From NCBI GenBank assembly GCA_002399285.1, contig DHDI01000026.1, positions 52,461 to 116,460 on the forward strand: DNA of 64,000 nt. The letters run 5' to 3'. Made by a program: the position numbers and the translations under genes. This document shows positions 9,736-64,000 of the stretch, one piece after another (positions within the stretch are counted from its first letter, which is position 1; the number at the start of each line of letters is the position of its first letter). The notes beneath the pieces were generated by a model, which worked only from the letters and a program-made list of their open reading frames with translations, did no database searches and was not told the DNA's origin. The stretch is from Thermoanaerobacterales bacterium UBA4880 (GTDB taxonomy: Bacteria; Bacillota; Thermoanaerobacteria; Thermoanaerobacterales; UBA4877).

Positions 9736-10818
9736 TTAACAGTATGTATTTACAAAATTCATATTTCTTCTCCTCATAAGGAGATCAACAAATGCCTCTA
9801 TACGTGTGCGATACCCAGCCTGGCCTGTATTCTCATCAAAGCTTAAAGACATTACCGGTATATCCAGGTCTTTGCTCATCTTACTCAATATAGCCTTTGA
9901 TACAACCTCGGGAGTACAGGTGAACGGGAATATTTGGATAACACCGTCGTAGCCGTCATCTGCACAAAGCCGTGTGTTGCCTATGGTATAAATGGCATGT
10001 CCCCCTATTACCTGGTTTAAATAAGGCGAGGCCGTTCTCTTTATTTTACTGAGCCTCCAGGGCATTATACAGGAAAACACAACATCAGTTATGTACTCTG
10101 TTTTTTTAACCTCTACACCCTGCTCATTGAGTTCCTTAAATATATCCTGACTGGCAAAAGGTTCTACAAGCAGATATATCTCCCCGACCACGGCAATACG
10201 TAGCGTAGTATCTGCAGGCTTCGTAAGAGACTTCATCTCCTTGATGGCCTCCAGGCTCAGCCTTTTAATTTCCCTTACATCAGAGGTCCGGTCGATATAA
10301 TTTACGTATTCATTATATTTCTGTGTCACTATACCCCTGCGGGATTCATGGGCACGCAGAACAAGAAGAGCCTTTTCCATCTTATCGAGGTATATCATCT
10401 TTTGCCATGCAATCTTCCCTGCATTTATTACATCTTTTAGCGTCATATCTGGAAAAAGCGAAACCACATTTTTGATAAATCCCTTCAGATCGCCATGAGG
10501 AGGTTCAACTATTATAATCTTTGGATTGTAACCCATATCCCTTACTATCTCGCGCTGCACCTGGCCGTAGTATCCAAATCTGCACGGTCCGAATCCTCCA
10601 AGCATAATAATCGTATCCGCCCCTTTTTCCATGGCTTCAACAAAATTGCCAAGGGTGATCTTCAGCGGCAGACATGCAAACTCCGGACAGTTACGCACCC
10701 CTATTGAAAGAGTTTTTTCAGTAATAGGTGGGGGAACAACCACTTCTTTTCCCATGCCTTCAAAGAAGGCCTTAAGTATTATATCAAGATTTCCCATATG
10801 TGGATATGTCAATTTCAT
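9736..10818 (-). CDS. acyl-CoA dehydratase-related protein (DUF2229-type), subunit 1
   Basis: The 360-residue protein starts MKLTYPHMGNLDI and contains RNCPEFACLPLKITLGNF and MLGGFGPCRFGYYG, the Cys-containing segments typical of proteins related to the D component of 2-hydroxyacyl-CoA dehydratase (DUF2229/CoA-activase associated). These cysteines probably bind an iron-sulfur cluster. No membrane segment or signal peptide is seen. ATG 10818 is chosen because GGAGG lies upstream; it overlaps the stop of the preceding gene (TAATG). It probably works with the neighbouring activase ATPase. The reaction is not known; a reductive activation or low-potential electron transfer role is inferred from the family. 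Confidence 0.8.
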   Translation of the reverse strand: MKLTYPHMGNLDIILKAFFEGMGKEVVVPPPITEKTLSIGVRNCPEFACLPLKITLGNFVEAMEKGADTIIMLGGFGPCRFGYYGQVQREIVRDMGYNPKIIIVEPPHGDLKGFIKNVVSLFPDMTLKDVINAGKIAWQKMIYLDKMEKALLVLRAHESRRGIVTQKYNEYVNYIDRTSDVREIKRLSLEAIKEMKSLTKPADTTLRIAVVGEIYLLVEPFASQDIFKELNEQGVEVKKTEYITDVVFSCIMPWRLSKIKRTASPYLNQVIGGHAIYTIGNTRLCADDGYDGVIQIFPFTCTPEVVSKAILSKMSKDLDIPVMSLSFDENTGQAGYRTRIEAFVDLLMRRRNMNFVNTYC

Positions 10819-11798
10819 TATACAACCTCCTTCCATTGTATCAGATCCATAAATGCCTCAAGACGAGTAATCAAACCTGCTTCACCTGTCTCCTCATCAA
10901 TTGTAAGGGTCAAAAACGGCATCGTGTCTTTTCTTTTGTACTCCCTCTCAACCATATCCTTTATTATAGAATCGGGTCCACAGCCAAAGGCACTGACCAA
11001 AATCACTCCGTCAACCAGATCGTTATCCAGCATATACCTGCCTGCTCCCAGCATCTCCCTCCCATAGGTCCAGAACATATCCTTGGGATAACAGGAAGCG
11101 CCGTAATCTATGGCGCTTTTGCTAAGCATATCGGATGTGATCACCGTTCCCCCGAAATCATTTATTTTTTTTATTATATTCATGCTTATATATTCATCCA
11201 TTATGTTATAGACATGCCCAAGGAGTCCTATCTTTAATGATCCCTCGGTTGATTTTTTAATTGGCTTTGTTCCTTCAGTCATTCTCAATGCATCCTTAGG
11301 AATAAAACCGTCTTTTAAATATTTGGTATAAATTTTCAAGGCGCTTTCCCCCGCTTGTTCCGCGCTTTTTATTTTTCGCATGTCATTAGTAAAAATCCTG
11401 CCTACACGTTTAATCTCACTGCGTGTTTTCCGTCCATATCCTCTGTATAAATCAATATCCATGTCGATGATTGGCGGTATATCCGTCATTGAAGCCCTCA
11501 CAAGATCTGGAAGTCCAAGAAATTTGGGACATAGAAATCTATCTTGCTCCAGGCTTACAACTCTGGGAACAAATATATAATCCACATTTTTCTTTTTTAA
11601 ATTCAAAATATGTCCAAAAAATACCTTCACAGGAAGGCACGCTTCATCAACCGTGTTCATAACACCGTCGTCCATAATCTTTTTATTAGTTTTTTGAGAT
11701 AGTATGACCTGACCGCCCAATTCATTAAAAAAAGCTTCCCATGCCGGATAAAAATTGTAATAGAGCAGTGCTCGTGGAATGCCTATTTTTATACCCAT
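10818..11798 (-). CDS. acyl-CoA dehydratase-related protein (DUF2229-type), subunit 2
   Basis: A 326-residue protein beginning MGIKIGIPRALLYYNFYP, the usual opening of the DUF2229 domain of giant activase proteins. It has EACLPVKVFFGH and ASCYPKDMFW with conserved Cys, and SAFGCGPDSI, which parallels the Cys-bearing segments of the following gene. Both end in a related tail (LTIDEETGEAGLITRLEAFMDL here; SFDENTGQAGYRTRIEAFVDL in the next gene), so the two are diverged homologues. First gene of the three-gene operon; the 192 bases upstream up to yvcK hold a terminator and room for a promoter. Confidence 0.8.
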   Translation of the reverse strand: MGIKIGIPRALLYYNFYPAWEAFFNELGGQVILSQKTNKKIMDDGVMNTVDEACLPVKVFFGHILNLKKKNVDYIFVPRVVSLEQDRFLCPKFLGLPDLVRASMTDIPPIIDMDIDLYRGYGRKTRSEIKRVGRIFTNDMRKIKSAEQAGESALKIYTKYLKDGFIPKDALRMTEGTKPIKKSTEGSLKIGLLGHVYNIMDEYISMNIIKKINDFGGTVITSDMLSKSAIDYGASCYPKDMFWTYGREMLGAGRYMLDNDLVDGVILVSAFGCGPDSIIKDMVEREYKRKDTMPFLTLTIDEETGEAGLITRLEAFMDLIQWKEVV

Positions 11799-58004: not shown

Positions 58005-58376
58005 TCAAAACTCTACTACCTTCAACACGTTCCCCTTGTTGTCAAGGAACCTTATCCTGCTTACATCTTCCGACGGTTTAATAACCCTGATGTCATATGG
58101 ATATGTTACGGCCTGGGTGACCATATCTCCCGGCCTCGGAGAATGTACCAAGGTGAACACATCGGTACTGCCGGTCTCGGAACTTCTCGCGCTGTAAATC
58201 TTAATGCTATATCCCCCGGTCGGCCTTTCTCCCGAAGCCGCAATGAGATAAAAGGTGTTCCCTGCCCTTACGGCCTTATACCCGCCGCTCATTTTTATCT
58301 CATCCAGCTCTTTCTTGACCACATCAGGTATACCATCCAAATCCACCGCCTCCGAATCAGCATTTTTGCGGCACAA
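58005..58376 (-). CDS. PrcB C-terminal domain protein, possibly 5'-truncated
   Basis: A 123-residue protein whose second half (SGGYKAVRAGNTFYLIAASGE..RPTGGYSIKIYSA, then VTYPYDIRVIKP) matches the PrcB_C domain found in secreted clostridial and treponemal proteins. The start is doubtful: TTG 58376 has only AAGGG upstream and no signal peptide, while the frame stays open to about 58447 without an ATG or GTG. Full-length relatives are exported, so this gene may have lost its 5' end. No partner protease is adjacent. Confidence 0.65.
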   Translation of the reverse strand: MCRKNADSEAVDLDGIPDVVKKELDEIKMSGGYKAVRAGNTFYLIAASGERPTGGYSIKIYSARSSETGSTDVFTLVHSPRPGDMVTQAVTYPYDIRVIKPSEDVSRIRFLDNKGNVLKVVEF

Positions 58377-60265: not shown

Positions 60266-60496
60266 TTACCGGTGATTATCCAAAAGTATTTTTAAGCTAT
60301 CAACCGTATTTTTGGGATTATTAGCTGCGGTTATGTTCTCATTCTTGACATCCAAAAGTTCGGTACGGACTATCTCTATGTTTCTCGGCGCCGCAATGCC
60401 TATGCTCACCTTGTCTTCATCCAGATCCATTATGGTTATAGTTATGTTATCCCCTATTTTGATGCTCTGACCCTTTTTCCTCGTAAGAACAAGCAT
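60266..60496 (-). CDS. csrA: carbon storage regulator CsrA
   Basis: A 76-residue RNA-binding dimer that represses translation, notably of flagellin, by covering GGA-containing ribosome sites. It begins MLVLTRKKGQSIKIGDNITI and has VSIGIAAPRNIEIVRTEL with the RNA-contact Arg. The start is one base after the fliW-fusion stop; the ribosome site (GGGAGATAAGG) lies in the end of that gene. FliW antagonises CsrA in Firmicutes, and the order here is the standard fliW-csrA pair. Confidence 0.97.
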   Translation of the reverse strand: MLVLTRKKGQSIKIGDNITITIMDLDEDKVSIGIAAPRNIEIVRTELLDVKNENITAANNPKNTVDSLKILLDNHR

Positions 60497-60497
60497 C

Positions 60498-61625
60498 TTA
60501 CCTTATCTCCCTTACTATTTTCACACCGTTGGCATCCAGATGATATAGAAAAAGTGGATTTATGAGGTCGGCCGAGTGTTCTTTGGAATCAAAGGTATCT
60601 ACGCAGTTATAGGGGATAATAATGTCCACGGGAGCATCACTGCTGTTCAAAAACATTTTTAACGTCATTGCAGTCTGATATATGCAGAGGTCCGTACAGT
60701 TTCCCGTTAAAATAAAGCATCTGGTTCCGCTTTTGATCAGCTTCTGTACATAGGTATTGAAATCAGGATTAGTGAAGGCATTTAGCGAGTTCTTAGGGAA
60801 TACTTCGGCACTTCCGGCAAACCCCTTAAGACTGTCTACAATCTCACATTCCCGTGTCCCTTCAATGGCATGGGGTGGAAATTCGTTGAACTCCGCCGAA
60901 CTTTCGTGATGGGAGTCATTTAAAAATGCAATGTTCTTGACACCTTCGGCCAACAACTTCTTGGACAGAATAAATATAGGCATTTCCAAATTATGCATCC
61001 TTGGACTGGAAAGCTGCCCCGTTCTGCAAAATCCATTTATCATATCGACTATGAGAAGAGAAATGGCGGACGGACTTTGGTATCTCCGCTTTAATTCGCT
61101 GAATTCCACGGGCGCCAAACCGTCTGCAAATCTGTGTACGTGGCGTATAAAGCCTTCACAGTCTTTATAATAATCTTTTTCCACACCGTAATGATTCAGA
61201 TCTCCCTTAAGGTAATGCTTTATTTCATAGTCGTCGGTATTATCCAATAATATCTGCGAAGCCTTATTATTATCCTTGTTTATCACAATCGGCGCTTTAA
61301 GGTTACATGATATCTCTTCTATATTGTCCGGTATGACGACTATATTATAGATACATACAGAAGATGCGCCCTGTGCACCGAGGTTCTCAACTTCCTCTAT
61401 GGGAATTTCCGGCACATAGTTTGAAACGACATCGGTACCGTCTATTATGACAAAGGCCAGGCCGGGGTCGTCAACGGACTGCAGCCACATAAAGGGCTCG
61501 TTGTCTTCCCTGCTGATGATTATGTATCTCTTGAATCCCTCAAACCCAAGTATTTCGCTTTGAAAATATAATACCTCATTCTCGTCGTATTCAATAGGGC
61601 CGAAATTGCTTGTCTCTATAAGCAT
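60498..61625 (-). CDS. FliW fused to a nicotinamidase/isochorismatase-type cysteine hydrolase
   Basis: A 375-residue continuous frame. Residues 1-~145 are FliW (TSNFGPIEYDENEVLYFQS, ILGFEGFKRYIII, FMWLQSVDDPGLAFVII), the flagellar assembly factor that binds CsrA and flagellin. Residues ~185-375 are a cysteine hydrolase fold with the triad Asp194 (LLIVDM), Lys278 (FPKNS), Cys314 (TDLC) and nicotinamidase-like metal ligands Asp237, His239 and His252. FliW proteins are normally ~150 residues. The hydrolase looks active; nicotinamide or another amide is the likely substrate class. No frameshift or stop lies at the join. Translation coupled to csrA. Confidence 0.9.
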   Translation of the reverse strand: MLIETSNFGPIEYDENEVLYFQSEILGFEGFKRYIIISREDNEPFMWLQSVDDPGLAFVIIDGTDVVSNYVPEIPIEEVENLGAQGASSVCIYNIVVIPDNIEEISCNLKAPIVINKDNNKASQILLDNTDDYEIKHYLKGDLNHYGVEKDYYKDCEGFIRHVHRFADGLAPVEFSELKRRYQSPSAISLLIVDMINGFCRTGQLSSPRMHNLEMPIFILSKKLLAEGVKNIAFLNDSHHESSAEFNEFPPHAIEGTRECEIVDSLKGFAGSAEVFPKNSLNAFTNPDFNTYVQKLIKSGTRCFILTGNCTDLCIYQTAMTLKMFLNSSDAPVDIIIPYNCVDTFDSKEHSADLINPLFLYHLDANGVKIVREIR

Positions 61626-61697
61626 AAAATATCCCCCTATAAATAAAATTCTAATGTTATTTTATCATCATAAGTAAAAAATGTGAATAAATAAAAA

Positions 61698-61719
61698 AAG
61701 GACATAATAAATGTCCCTT
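61698..61719 (-). terminator. terminator after flgL
   Basis: AAGGACAT / ATGTCCCTT around a five-base loop, followed by TTTTTTTATTT on the minus strand, just past the flgL stop (61725). It separates flgKL from fliW-csrA. Confidence 0.8.
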
Positions 61720-61724
61720 TGAAA

Positions 61725-62642
61725 TCACCGCAGGAAATCCAGAAGTGAAGGCTGAATAATCCGCGACCCGACATTAAGAGAAGAAGTATATACATTTATG
61801 GAATTTACAAGATCCATTATCGTCTCCGCAATATCGGCATCTTCCGCATTGGCCAGCAGGTTCGTAAAATTAAGATTGTCATCGGCCAGCCTGTTTTTGG
61901 TAAGCGCCACCCGGTTGTCACGCGCTCCCACATCCGCCCTTACCGCAAGAATATTGTTTATGTGGTCATCCAATTCATCAATATGAGAGGAAATCCCCGT
62001 CGTGTTGCCGGCCTGCAGATCCGCCGCTATATCGTCAAACAGTTTAAAGAGATTGTCGCCACTCCCGGTATCGCCAAATATCTTATCCCCCGTAACGTTT
62101 ATGGTTATCTGATCGTCGGCCCCCACGTTGTATTTGAGCTCCCAGGAATCACCCGCGGCCACATTCGATCCGTTATAGACCACTCCGCCGTTTGCACTGT
62201 TTGTCGTATCCAACGTATATGCCTCAGTCGTAGTCTTCATTCCTCCGAATATGTACCTGTCCGAATACTCCGTGTTGCCTACGTTTACAAGCTGCTGCTT
62301 CAGCTGGTTTATTTCACTTACTATGTCCTCGGTCTCCGTAGGACTGTTCGACCCTTCTACGAGAAGTTCCCGTGCTCTGCTGAGTACGGTCGTCACATTA
62401 TTCAGCGCCGTATCGGTAAGCTTAAGCCATGAATCCGCATCGTCCACATTCTTTTTATACTGGTCTATAGCCGATACGTCCCTGTTCAATTTCATTACCG
62501 TCACTGTGCCGATCGGATCATCGGAAGGGTATTGGATGCGCTTGCCCGAGGCAAGCATTTGCTGAAGTTTATCCATCCGTTCGGTATTCTTGGAGAAATT
62601 CAGCAGAAAATTATCTATCATCATATTGTTGGTCACACGCAT
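61725..62642 (-). CDS. flgL: flagellar hook-associated protein 3
   Basis: FlgL joins the hook to the filament. The 305-residue flagellin-like protein begins MRVTNNMMIDNFLLNFSKN and has LQQMLASGKRIQYPSDDP, with coiled-coil terminal regions and a variable middle. The C-terminus (IAETIMDLVNSINVYTSSL) fits the D0 domain. GGGAGGTAG precedes ATG 62642, overlapping the end of flgK; the two are co-transcribed. Confidence 0.95.
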   Translation of the reverse strand: MRVTNNMMIDNFLLNFSKNTERMDKLQQMLASGKRIQYPSDDPIGTVTVMKLNRDVSAIDQYKKNVDDADSWLKLTDTALNNVTTVLSRARELLVEGSNSPTETEDIVSEINQLKQQLVNVGNTEYSDRYIFGGMKTTTEAYTLDTTNSANGGVVYNGSNVAAGDSWELKYNVGADDQITINVTGDKIFGDTGSGDNLFKLFDDIAADLQAGNTTGISSHIDELDDHINNILAVRADVGARDNRVALTKNRLADDNLNFTNLLANAEDADIAETIMDLVNSINVYTSSLNVGSRIIQPSLLDFLR

Positions 62643-62647
62643 TTAGA

Positions 62648-64000
62648 CTACCTCCCCACTACACCCATTTTATTTACTATGGTATCTATCATCTCATCGA
62701 TAGCGGTTATCATCCTTGCCGCGGCATTATAGGAGTGCTGATATTTGATCATGTCGGACATCTCTTCGTCCATCGACACGCCCGATATCGACTGTCTGTT
62801 GTTATCCACGTACTTGGCCAGAACGCTCTGATTGGCAGTCATTCTTTCAGCCTGCTGGGCATCTACCCCGAGATTGGAAATCAATGAGGTAGTAAAATCT
62901 TCGAAGGTGCCCGTTGTGAATACGCCGGTATCTCCCCTCAGTTTAATGAGCTTAAGGATATTTGTATTGTCGCCGGGAAGTCCATTCGGATCGGAAGCAG
63001 CCGCTATCTTATTGAGATCGTCCTTGATATCATCGGAAATATCCATATCTCCTGCATTCAAACCTGGCGTAGATAGATCTTTGAATAAATTCACTGCGGT
63101 GGTACTGTTCAGGCCGTAACCGGCCCTATGCTGCTCATTAATCGTATCTGTGAAAGTCGTAGCGAAAGTGTTCCATTGATTGATATAGTAATTGACCCCC
63201 TTATATGCGGGATCGCCGTTTCCGTCTCTGGCATCCAGCAGACCTTTGATCCTGCCCGACTTTAGATCCACGGCCACCCCGGTGGTCTTCCAGACAGGAT
63301 TTACCATGTTATCGGTAGGATTGGCTTTGGCTTCGATCTCGTAATAATCGGTATTATCGACCAGGGCCCGGCCCGCTATATCGACTCTCAGCCTTCCCCT
63401 GCTATCCTCATAGCTTGTTATGCTTACCAAATCGGAGAGCTTGTCTAAAAGCAGATTTCTCGAATCTCTAAGATCATTGGCCTTGTCGCCGTTTAATTCG
63501 AATTTATATATCTGATCGTTTAAATCCGCGATCCTCTTGGCATAGGAATTAACCTCGCCTATATTGGTTATTATATTCTGATTTATTTCCTCTCTCTTGT
63601 CAACAAGCTTGTTATATGTTGTCCTTATAGTCTGTGCGACAGCTACGGCTCTTTCCCGGACCGTAGCCCTGGTGGAGAGACTCTCCGGAGTCTTTGAGAG
63701 CTCCTCCAATGATTCGAAGAACTGTTTCATCACAGTGGCAATACCCGTATCCGAGGGCTCGTTGAATATTGCCTCAAGGCTGTTCAAAACTTGAGCCTTA
63801 GCATCCCACTCCCCATAGACGCAGTTTTCTCCTCTGTACTGTGCGTCAAGAAAAATATCCCTTATCTGATTGATGCCGGTTATATCCACCCCAGATCCTA
63901 CCTTTCCCTGCCCATATGTATCAAACATGCCCAGGGCAGGCAAAGGCGCAGCAGCAGCAAGATCCACTCTTTGTCTGGTATATCCCGGCGTATTGGCATT
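62648..64000 (-). CDS. flgK: flagellar hook-associated protein 1 (cut by window edge)
   Basis: FlgK is the first hook-filament junction protein. The visible ~450 residues enter at the conserved NANTPGYTRQRVDL near the true N-terminus, then GVDITGINQIRDIFLDAQYR and the long D1-D2 region, ending with the FlgK C-terminal motif GVSMDEEMSDMIKYQHSYNAAARMITAIDEM. Only the first few residues are missing beyond 64000. Followed by flgL with a short gap. Confidence 0.97.
   Translation of the reverse strand, partial: NANTPGYTRQRVDLAAAAPLPALGMFDTYGQGKVGSGVDITGINQIRDIFLDAQYRGENCVYGEWDAKAQVLNSLEAIFNEPSDTGIATVMKQFFESLEELSKTPESLSTRATVRERAVAVAQTIRTTYNKLVDKREEINQNIITNIGEVNSYAKRIADLNDQIYKFELNGDKANDLRDSRNLLLDKLSDLVSITSYEDSRGRLRVDIAGRALVDNTDYYEIEAKANPTDNMVNPVWKTTGVAVDLKSGRIKGLLDARDGNGDPAYKGVNYYINQWNTFATTFTDTINEQHRAGYGLNSTTAVNLFKDLSTPGLNAGDMDISDDIKDDLNKIAAASDPNGLPGDNTNILKLIKLRGDTGVFTTGTFEDFTTSLISNLGVDAQQAERMTANQSVLAKYVDNNRQSISGVSMDEEMSDMIKYQHSYNAAARMITAIDEMIDTIVNKMGVVGR

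Follow-up and report, generated by a model that had tools for sequence, protein, structure and literature searches.

FliW joined in frame to a nicotinamidase-type hydrolase in front of csrA in a small lineage of Thermoanaerobacterales

A single gene in the window (the whole 64,000-nt stretch of DNA that was analysed, from Thermoanaerobacterales bacterium UBA4880) encodes FliW fused to an isochorismatase-superfamily hydrolase, and the fusion is genuine. The product was judged, at a probability of roughly 0.6, to be a bifunctional protein of a small lineage that would combine the FliW switch with a nicotinamidase under housekeeping expression; L001, a locus of a Thermoanaerobacteraceae MAG, is one member of that lineage. 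To our knowledge FliW is a small partner-switch protein without enzyme activity, and in this protein it is joined to an enzyme that looks like the only nicotinamidase of the cell, transcription of the gene apparently having been rewired to suit. If so, the lineage provides a natural test of a stoichiometry-sensitive regulator tolerating fusion to a housekeeping enzyme, and of motility being tied to NAD supply. The features of the locus, in reading order, were:

62648..63967, minus strand: flgK, start cut off by the window edge (PF22638; longer copy in L001).
61725..62642, minus strand: flgL (PF00669/PF00700; named from position and length).
61696..61720, minus strand: terminator-like hairpin with a T run, between flgL and the fusion gene (putative function).
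61659..61687, minus strand: sigma-A-like promoter TTCACA-17-TAAAAT with TG before the -10, kept in three fusion loci (putative function).
60498..61625, minus strand: fused gene, FliW plus isochorismatase-superfamily hydrolase, 375 aa (ORF, Pfam, homologues).
61206..61625, minus strand: FliW domain, residues 1–140 (PF02623; Foldseek 5dmd, TMt 0.88).
61062..61205, minus strand: junction and helix, residues 141–188, overlapping the N-terminal helix of stand-alone hydrolases.
60501..61061, minus strand: hydrolase domain, residues 189–375 (PF00857; triad D194/K278/C314).
60507..60512, minus strand: AGGGAG within the hydrolase's last codons, ribosome-site-like for csrA (putative function).
60266..60496, minus strand: csrA, 76 aa, with an extended C-terminus (PF02599).

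The fusion ORF was read on the minus strand from ATG (61625) to TAA (60498). Both Pfam domains scored above their curated cut-offs (PF02623, E 3.7e-36, residues 20–139, 124.1 bits versus 25; PF00857, E 1.9e-14, residues 190–352, 54.5 bits versus 27), in agreement with the original prediction of a full FliW joined to a full cysteine hydrolase in one frame. The FliW half fell under the whole-protein cut-off of all 8 matching NCBIfam FliW equivalog models (nearest, NF009793, 124.2 versus 130; best score, NF009798, 145.4 versus 208); these models are lineage-specific, and FliW membership was assigned by Pfam and fold (Foldseek 5dmd_B, E 4e-13, TMt 0.88). Compared with the FliW structures 5dmb, 5dmd and 5jak, this half was 34–35% identical at TMt 0.87–0.90. 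In the hydrolase half, D194, K278, C314, D237, H239 and H252 were in place as had been claimed, and a probable fourth metal ligand, E245, had been overlooked. The triad and the presumed metal ligands D237/H239/E245/H252 were invariant in 5/5 fusion proteins, so that the nicotinamidase-type site appears complete.

Searching 5.8 billion proteins with the fusion returned 38 hits from 2,290 candidates. Five were full-length fusion clusters, namely that of the window and four others 70–74% identical to it; the remainder were the stand-alone hydrolase P0006 (60% identity) and 32 more distant stand-alone hydrolases. When the FliW part (residues 1–145) was searched against the 5.8 billion proteins, with candidates restricted to 206–656 aa and to those sharing exact words, 5 hits were obtained from 101 candidates, all five of them fusions. 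A broader FliW profile gave 376 hits from 7,165 candidates, and both domains occurred only in the five fusions among the best 120 of the 376. These five clusters carry the two-domain architecture that was to be sought among FliW homologues. P0039 (290 aa) is a tandem FliW with two FliW domains in one protein; it resembles the fusion in that FliW is joined to another domain and differs in having a further FliW as partner in place of an enzyme.

A scan of a genome collection yielded 46 loci with one fusion, L001, whose neighbours were the same as in the window; the gene order around the fusion is common to two genomes. Within the GTDB order of L001 (24 genomes), the fusion was found in 2/24 (G001, G024), the halves apart in 20/24 and neither in 2/24, the 20 including G019, where a contig end truncates the hydrolase. 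Neither G001 nor G024 had a P0001-like FliW or a PF00857 match other than the fusion; for G001, FliW was checked with PF02623 as well. Statements on genome content of the fusion lineage rest on G001 and G024, not on the window's own genome. Across the class (37 genomes), FliW was fused in 2/37, separate in 33/37 and without a match in 2/37; FliW elsewhere was thus seen to stand alone, as had been stated, in the other class genomes that have it. FliW was present in 276/398 phylum genomes. Among the matches listed, four long-frame FliW loci (G175, G254, G330 and G246) were considered as further fusions and rejected as over-long starts, a C-terminal tail or ordinary FliW, with no hydrolase in any of the four.

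Nicotinamidase is the best reading of the hydrolase half, given the seven retained residues and the NrtR-hydrolase-PncB gene clusters of relatives. The fusion was compared with PncA and with the residues described in an excerpt of PMC6271260, and it has the Asp-Lys-Cys triad and the Asp-x-His...His (Glu) metal site, a pattern not exclusive to nicotinamidases. Unlike the nicotinamidases (PncA) of B. subtilis (5zn8, 6a8l) and S. pneumoniae (3o90–3o94), which the hydrolase half of the predicted model matches in fold at 22–26% identity, the enzyme here is part of a FliW fusion and lies below, or is absent from, the curated models. In a VIA comparison, for which a model with a confident hydrolase half and a poor FliW half was used (alignment with five FliW rows), 3hb7, 3eef and others tied with nicotinamidases in Z; 3eef has the same D-x-H, E, H pattern as the fusion, and fold and residues alone therefore cannot separate nicotinamidases from other amidases. 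No NCBIfam nicotinamidase model matched the fusion at E <= 1, including NF008623 (PRK11609), against which 5/6 stand-alone relatives scored 21.9–26.8 bits (cut-off 174) and P0006 gave no match. The fusion is not filed under the NF008623 equivalog, and the claim is that it would work like a nicotinamidase.

At L002 (7068–10155) and L003 (7047–10125), an NrtR-type regulator (PF21906), a PncA-like hydrolase and a nicotinate phosphoribosyltransferase lie in a row; these hydrolases are 36–37% identical to the fusion and score ~26.5 bits against the 174-bit NCBIfam nicotinamidase cut-off; they point to a family of PncA-like enzymes, seen in two NrtR-hydrolase-PncB clusters, whose scores are far too low for that model. 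One PF00857 match each was found in 22/24 order genomes (below cut-off in G019), that of G001 and G024 being the fusion, and neither fusion genome had another PF00857 protein or NadA. Nicotinate phosphoribosyltransferase was detected in 24/24 order genomes, all below the TIGR01513 cut-off; those of the fusion genomes scored 487 and 490 bits (NF006415 cut-off 243) and are encoded by genes unlinked to the fusion. NadA was absent from 10/37 class genomes, both fusion genomes included, and all 10 have a PF00857 match; the 15/37 without PF00857 all have NadA. This pattern has a chance of 0.0019 if genomes are independent (they are related, and completeness is not given), and its fit to a nicotinamidase role is only suggestive.

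The fused hydrolase is, by its sequence, kin of the order's own single-copy PF00857 enzyme. In a tree of 58 rows, the fusions and P0006, together on a long branch (1.22), grouped with 19 stand-alone enzymes of the order (support 99/91). The divergent P0036, whose C-terminus looks frameshifted, and the incomplete hydrolase of G019 were omitted from this tree, and L001 and L049, near-copies of P0003 and P0005, were omitted from both it and the FliW tree (20 rows), which did not resolve the position of the fusions among the order's FliW proteins. The order's stand-alone PF00857 hydrolases (L050–L068) are 39–47% identical to the fusion and have the same residues. They differ, as do those of L002 and L003, in being unfused and away from fliW, and the order enzymes have a loop of ~10 residues that is missing from the fusion. 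P0006 itself is a stand-alone protein of 233 aa on a 1,655-bp contig; it is 60% identical to the fused hydrolase and groups with the fusions.

Since the fusions share a long branch with P0006 and lack the loop, the substrate may have shifted. An active hydrolase whose substrate in this lineage is not nicotinamide would also account for the missing NCBIfam nicotinamidase match and for the other amidases that tie in fold, and was considered an unlikely reading. Against it stand the Asp-His-Glu-His metal set and the triad, which agree with those of nicotinamidases, the occurrence of relatives in NAD-salvage clusters, and the lack of any PF00857 match besides the fusion in genomes that have no NadA.

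Read in order, the locus consists of flgK, flgL, the fusion and csrA, followed by genes for a 4HBT thioesterase and for a protein that combines ODP and flavodoxin domains; flgK and flgL are named from domains and position. The hairpin after flgL and the TTCACA-17-TAAAAT element were present in 3/3 fusion loci (window, L001, L049), with the -10 ending 33–36 nt before the fusion ATG, and in 0/11 unfused loci was either found within 160 nt (L069–L077, from 9 of the 20 unfused genomes of the order, and L106 and L107, from 2 others of the class). This contrast in the terminator-like hairpin and sigma-A-like promoter between the fusion loci and the unfused loci examined is a new observation. The 42-column promoter block, chosen after its conservation was noticed, is 79–93% identical versus 42–49% at third codon positions, and the z score for folding of the window hairpin is -4.55. 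The promoter scan alone was near chance (12 found versus 9.3 expected in the region); the weight of the promoter and terminator reading is carried by conservation and by the difference from unfused loci. In the window and L001, an inverted repeat overlaps the -10. An operator with a regulon was considered and rejected: with <=2 mismatches allowed, the block gave 3 hits in G001 and 4 in G024, the reversed control 2 and 4, and so no regulon is shown.

The start of csrA lies one base past the fusion stop codon, which bears out the close coupling noted earlier; stop and start read TAA G ATG in the window, TAA T ATG in L001 and TGA T ATG in L049, and a putative GGAG-type ribosome site for csrA is placed inside the hydrolase's last codons. 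The end of fliW overlaps the csrA start in 9/9 unfused order loci (L069–L077), and the hydrolase must therefore have entered an overlapping gene pair; no overlap was seen in L106 and L107 of the same class. For B. subtilis, an excerpt of PMC6529632 describes fliW-csrA as translationally coupled and flagellin, FliW and CsrA dimers as near 1:1:1. With the same coupling here, the amount of enzyme would be tied to CsrA.

The flagellin switch looks intact, judged from the extended CsrA and conserved leader of fusion genomes (the leader from two). C. jejuni CsrA binds FliW through V51 and N55 (excerpt of PMC7829508); by eye, V50 and N54 of the fusion-locus CsrA seem to match these, given one missing residue. 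The one-residue gap is common to nine order CsrA proteins; in two of these, Ile or other changes surround the gap or the downstream spacing is different. Flagellin is present in both fusion genomes, and its leaders (L128, 1210–1409; L129, 1306–1494) are 98% identical over 130 nt, with third codon positions of the flagellin gene 63% identical between the two species (37% differ). In each leader one GGA lies in a hairpin loop and a second at the ribosome site, an arrangement that resembles the two-site layout described for CsrA targets in an excerpt of PMC7652899. The GGA-loop hairpin count of the G001 leader was reached in 3.8% of mononucleotide shuffles and whole-leader folding was unremarkable (z -1.49 and -0.59), and the case for the leader thus rests mainly on conservation. 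Shared with the flagellin-FliW-CsrA switch are a gene directly before csrA, the extended CsrA C-terminus and GGA sites in the flagellin leader; the fusion differs from known FliW genes in its C-terminal hydrolase and in being preceded by a terminator-like hairpin and a promoter of its own.

The locus would be explained most economically by a housekeeping nicotinamidase placed in the fliW-csrA junction under a private promoter, with salvage free of flagellar gene expression. In an ancestor, the order's nicotinamidase-type hydrolase would have come to lie between fliW and csrA and then have been joined in frame to the FliW C-terminus; the architecture, kinship and gene order are observed and the event is reconstructed from them. 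Going by its retained parts, the FliW half would keep the usual switch, in which free FliW binds CsrA and flagellin is translated, and surplus flagellin captures FliW and lets CsrA shut flagellin off. The hydrolase half would convert nicotinamide to nicotinate by the Cys-Lys-Asp/metal mechanism, as its residues, the genome content and the relatives' gene clusters suggest, and the nicotinate would probably go to nicotinate phosphoribosyltransferase, these cells having no NadA. Swimming and non-swimming cells alike need NAD salvage, and the gene would for that reason have been insulated from the late flagellar genes by the terminator and supplied with a vegetative-type promoter of its own; both elements are present in sequence, and their roles are putative. 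No cross-talk between the two halves would be needed.

A signal from NAD metabolism to FliW-CsrA is possible. Nicotinamide, its product or NAD status, acting through occupancy of the hydrolase site, could alter the meeting of the FliW half with CsrA or flagellin, so that NAD supply would set translation of flagellin and, via CsrA, of other mRNAs, and the promoter would keep such a sensor present in all growth phases. The long-helix tether in all 5 fusions and the csrA gene directly behind are in keeping with this, as is conservation of both halves: for the three fusion genes read as DNA, proteins are 70–79% identical with third codon positions at 42–49%, which argues that both domains are held by selection. 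dN was 0.10–0.22 in both domains and dS undefined (saturated) for most pairs; the one defined NG86 dN/dS was 0.094 (FliW, window–L001; 0.167 by YN00). Against it, the junction is the least conserved part (50–69% identity versus 67–78% for FliW and 76–84% for the hydrolase; dN/dS up to 0.41 by YN00 in one pair), and the structure model, in which a long helix tethers the two domains, gave no confident arrangement of them (pTM 0.64; mean pLDDT 58 at residues 141–150). A pure sensor would not need the full catalytic set that is kept, and the private terminator-like hairpin and vegetative-type promoter would fit a housekeeping salvage enzyme in the fliW slot at least as well. Overall, sensing was considered unlikely.

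Enzymes of the isochorismatase fold are often oligomeric, and FliW domains would thereby be brought together; the hydrolase could accordingly be pictured as a catalytically idle domain that only dimerises or positions FliW. With seven active-site residues invariant in 5/5 fusions and the hydrolase the best conserved part, this was given very little credence. An error of sequencing, assembly or annotation, for which nothing speaks beyond the usual risk of metagenome assembly, is refuted for the lineage by five fusion clusters of several origins, in which the frame runs through from end to end, and by three genes read as DNA, the missed stop suspected at 61140–61220 being cleared by the four in-frame clusters 70–74% identical to the window's and by the L001 and L049 genes, which have no stop.

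By titles and abstract starts, no description of a FliW-hydrolase fusion was found in the literature; it is absent from those portions of PMC3485029 (FliW with nicotinamidase) and PMC8849057 (FliW with isochorismatase). Sequence sources already name the parts, P0005 being labelled 'FliW protein./Isochorismatase family.'

Further observations were made in the window and in related genomes. A short ORF with a PrcB_C domain lies at 58005–58376 (minus strand) of the window; in L001 this domain is the C-terminal end of a 439-aa S-layer-homology protein (10190–11509), and the copy in the window may be a truncated form or a domain on its own. A membrane-type ORF, considered as a niacin transporter, was set aside for want of a Pfam or NCBIfam family match. 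An HTH + 3H regulator, which we take to be NiaR-like, was found in 6/6 genomes tried, and in both fusion genomes (G001, G024; loci L117, L119) it adjoins that membrane-type ORF.
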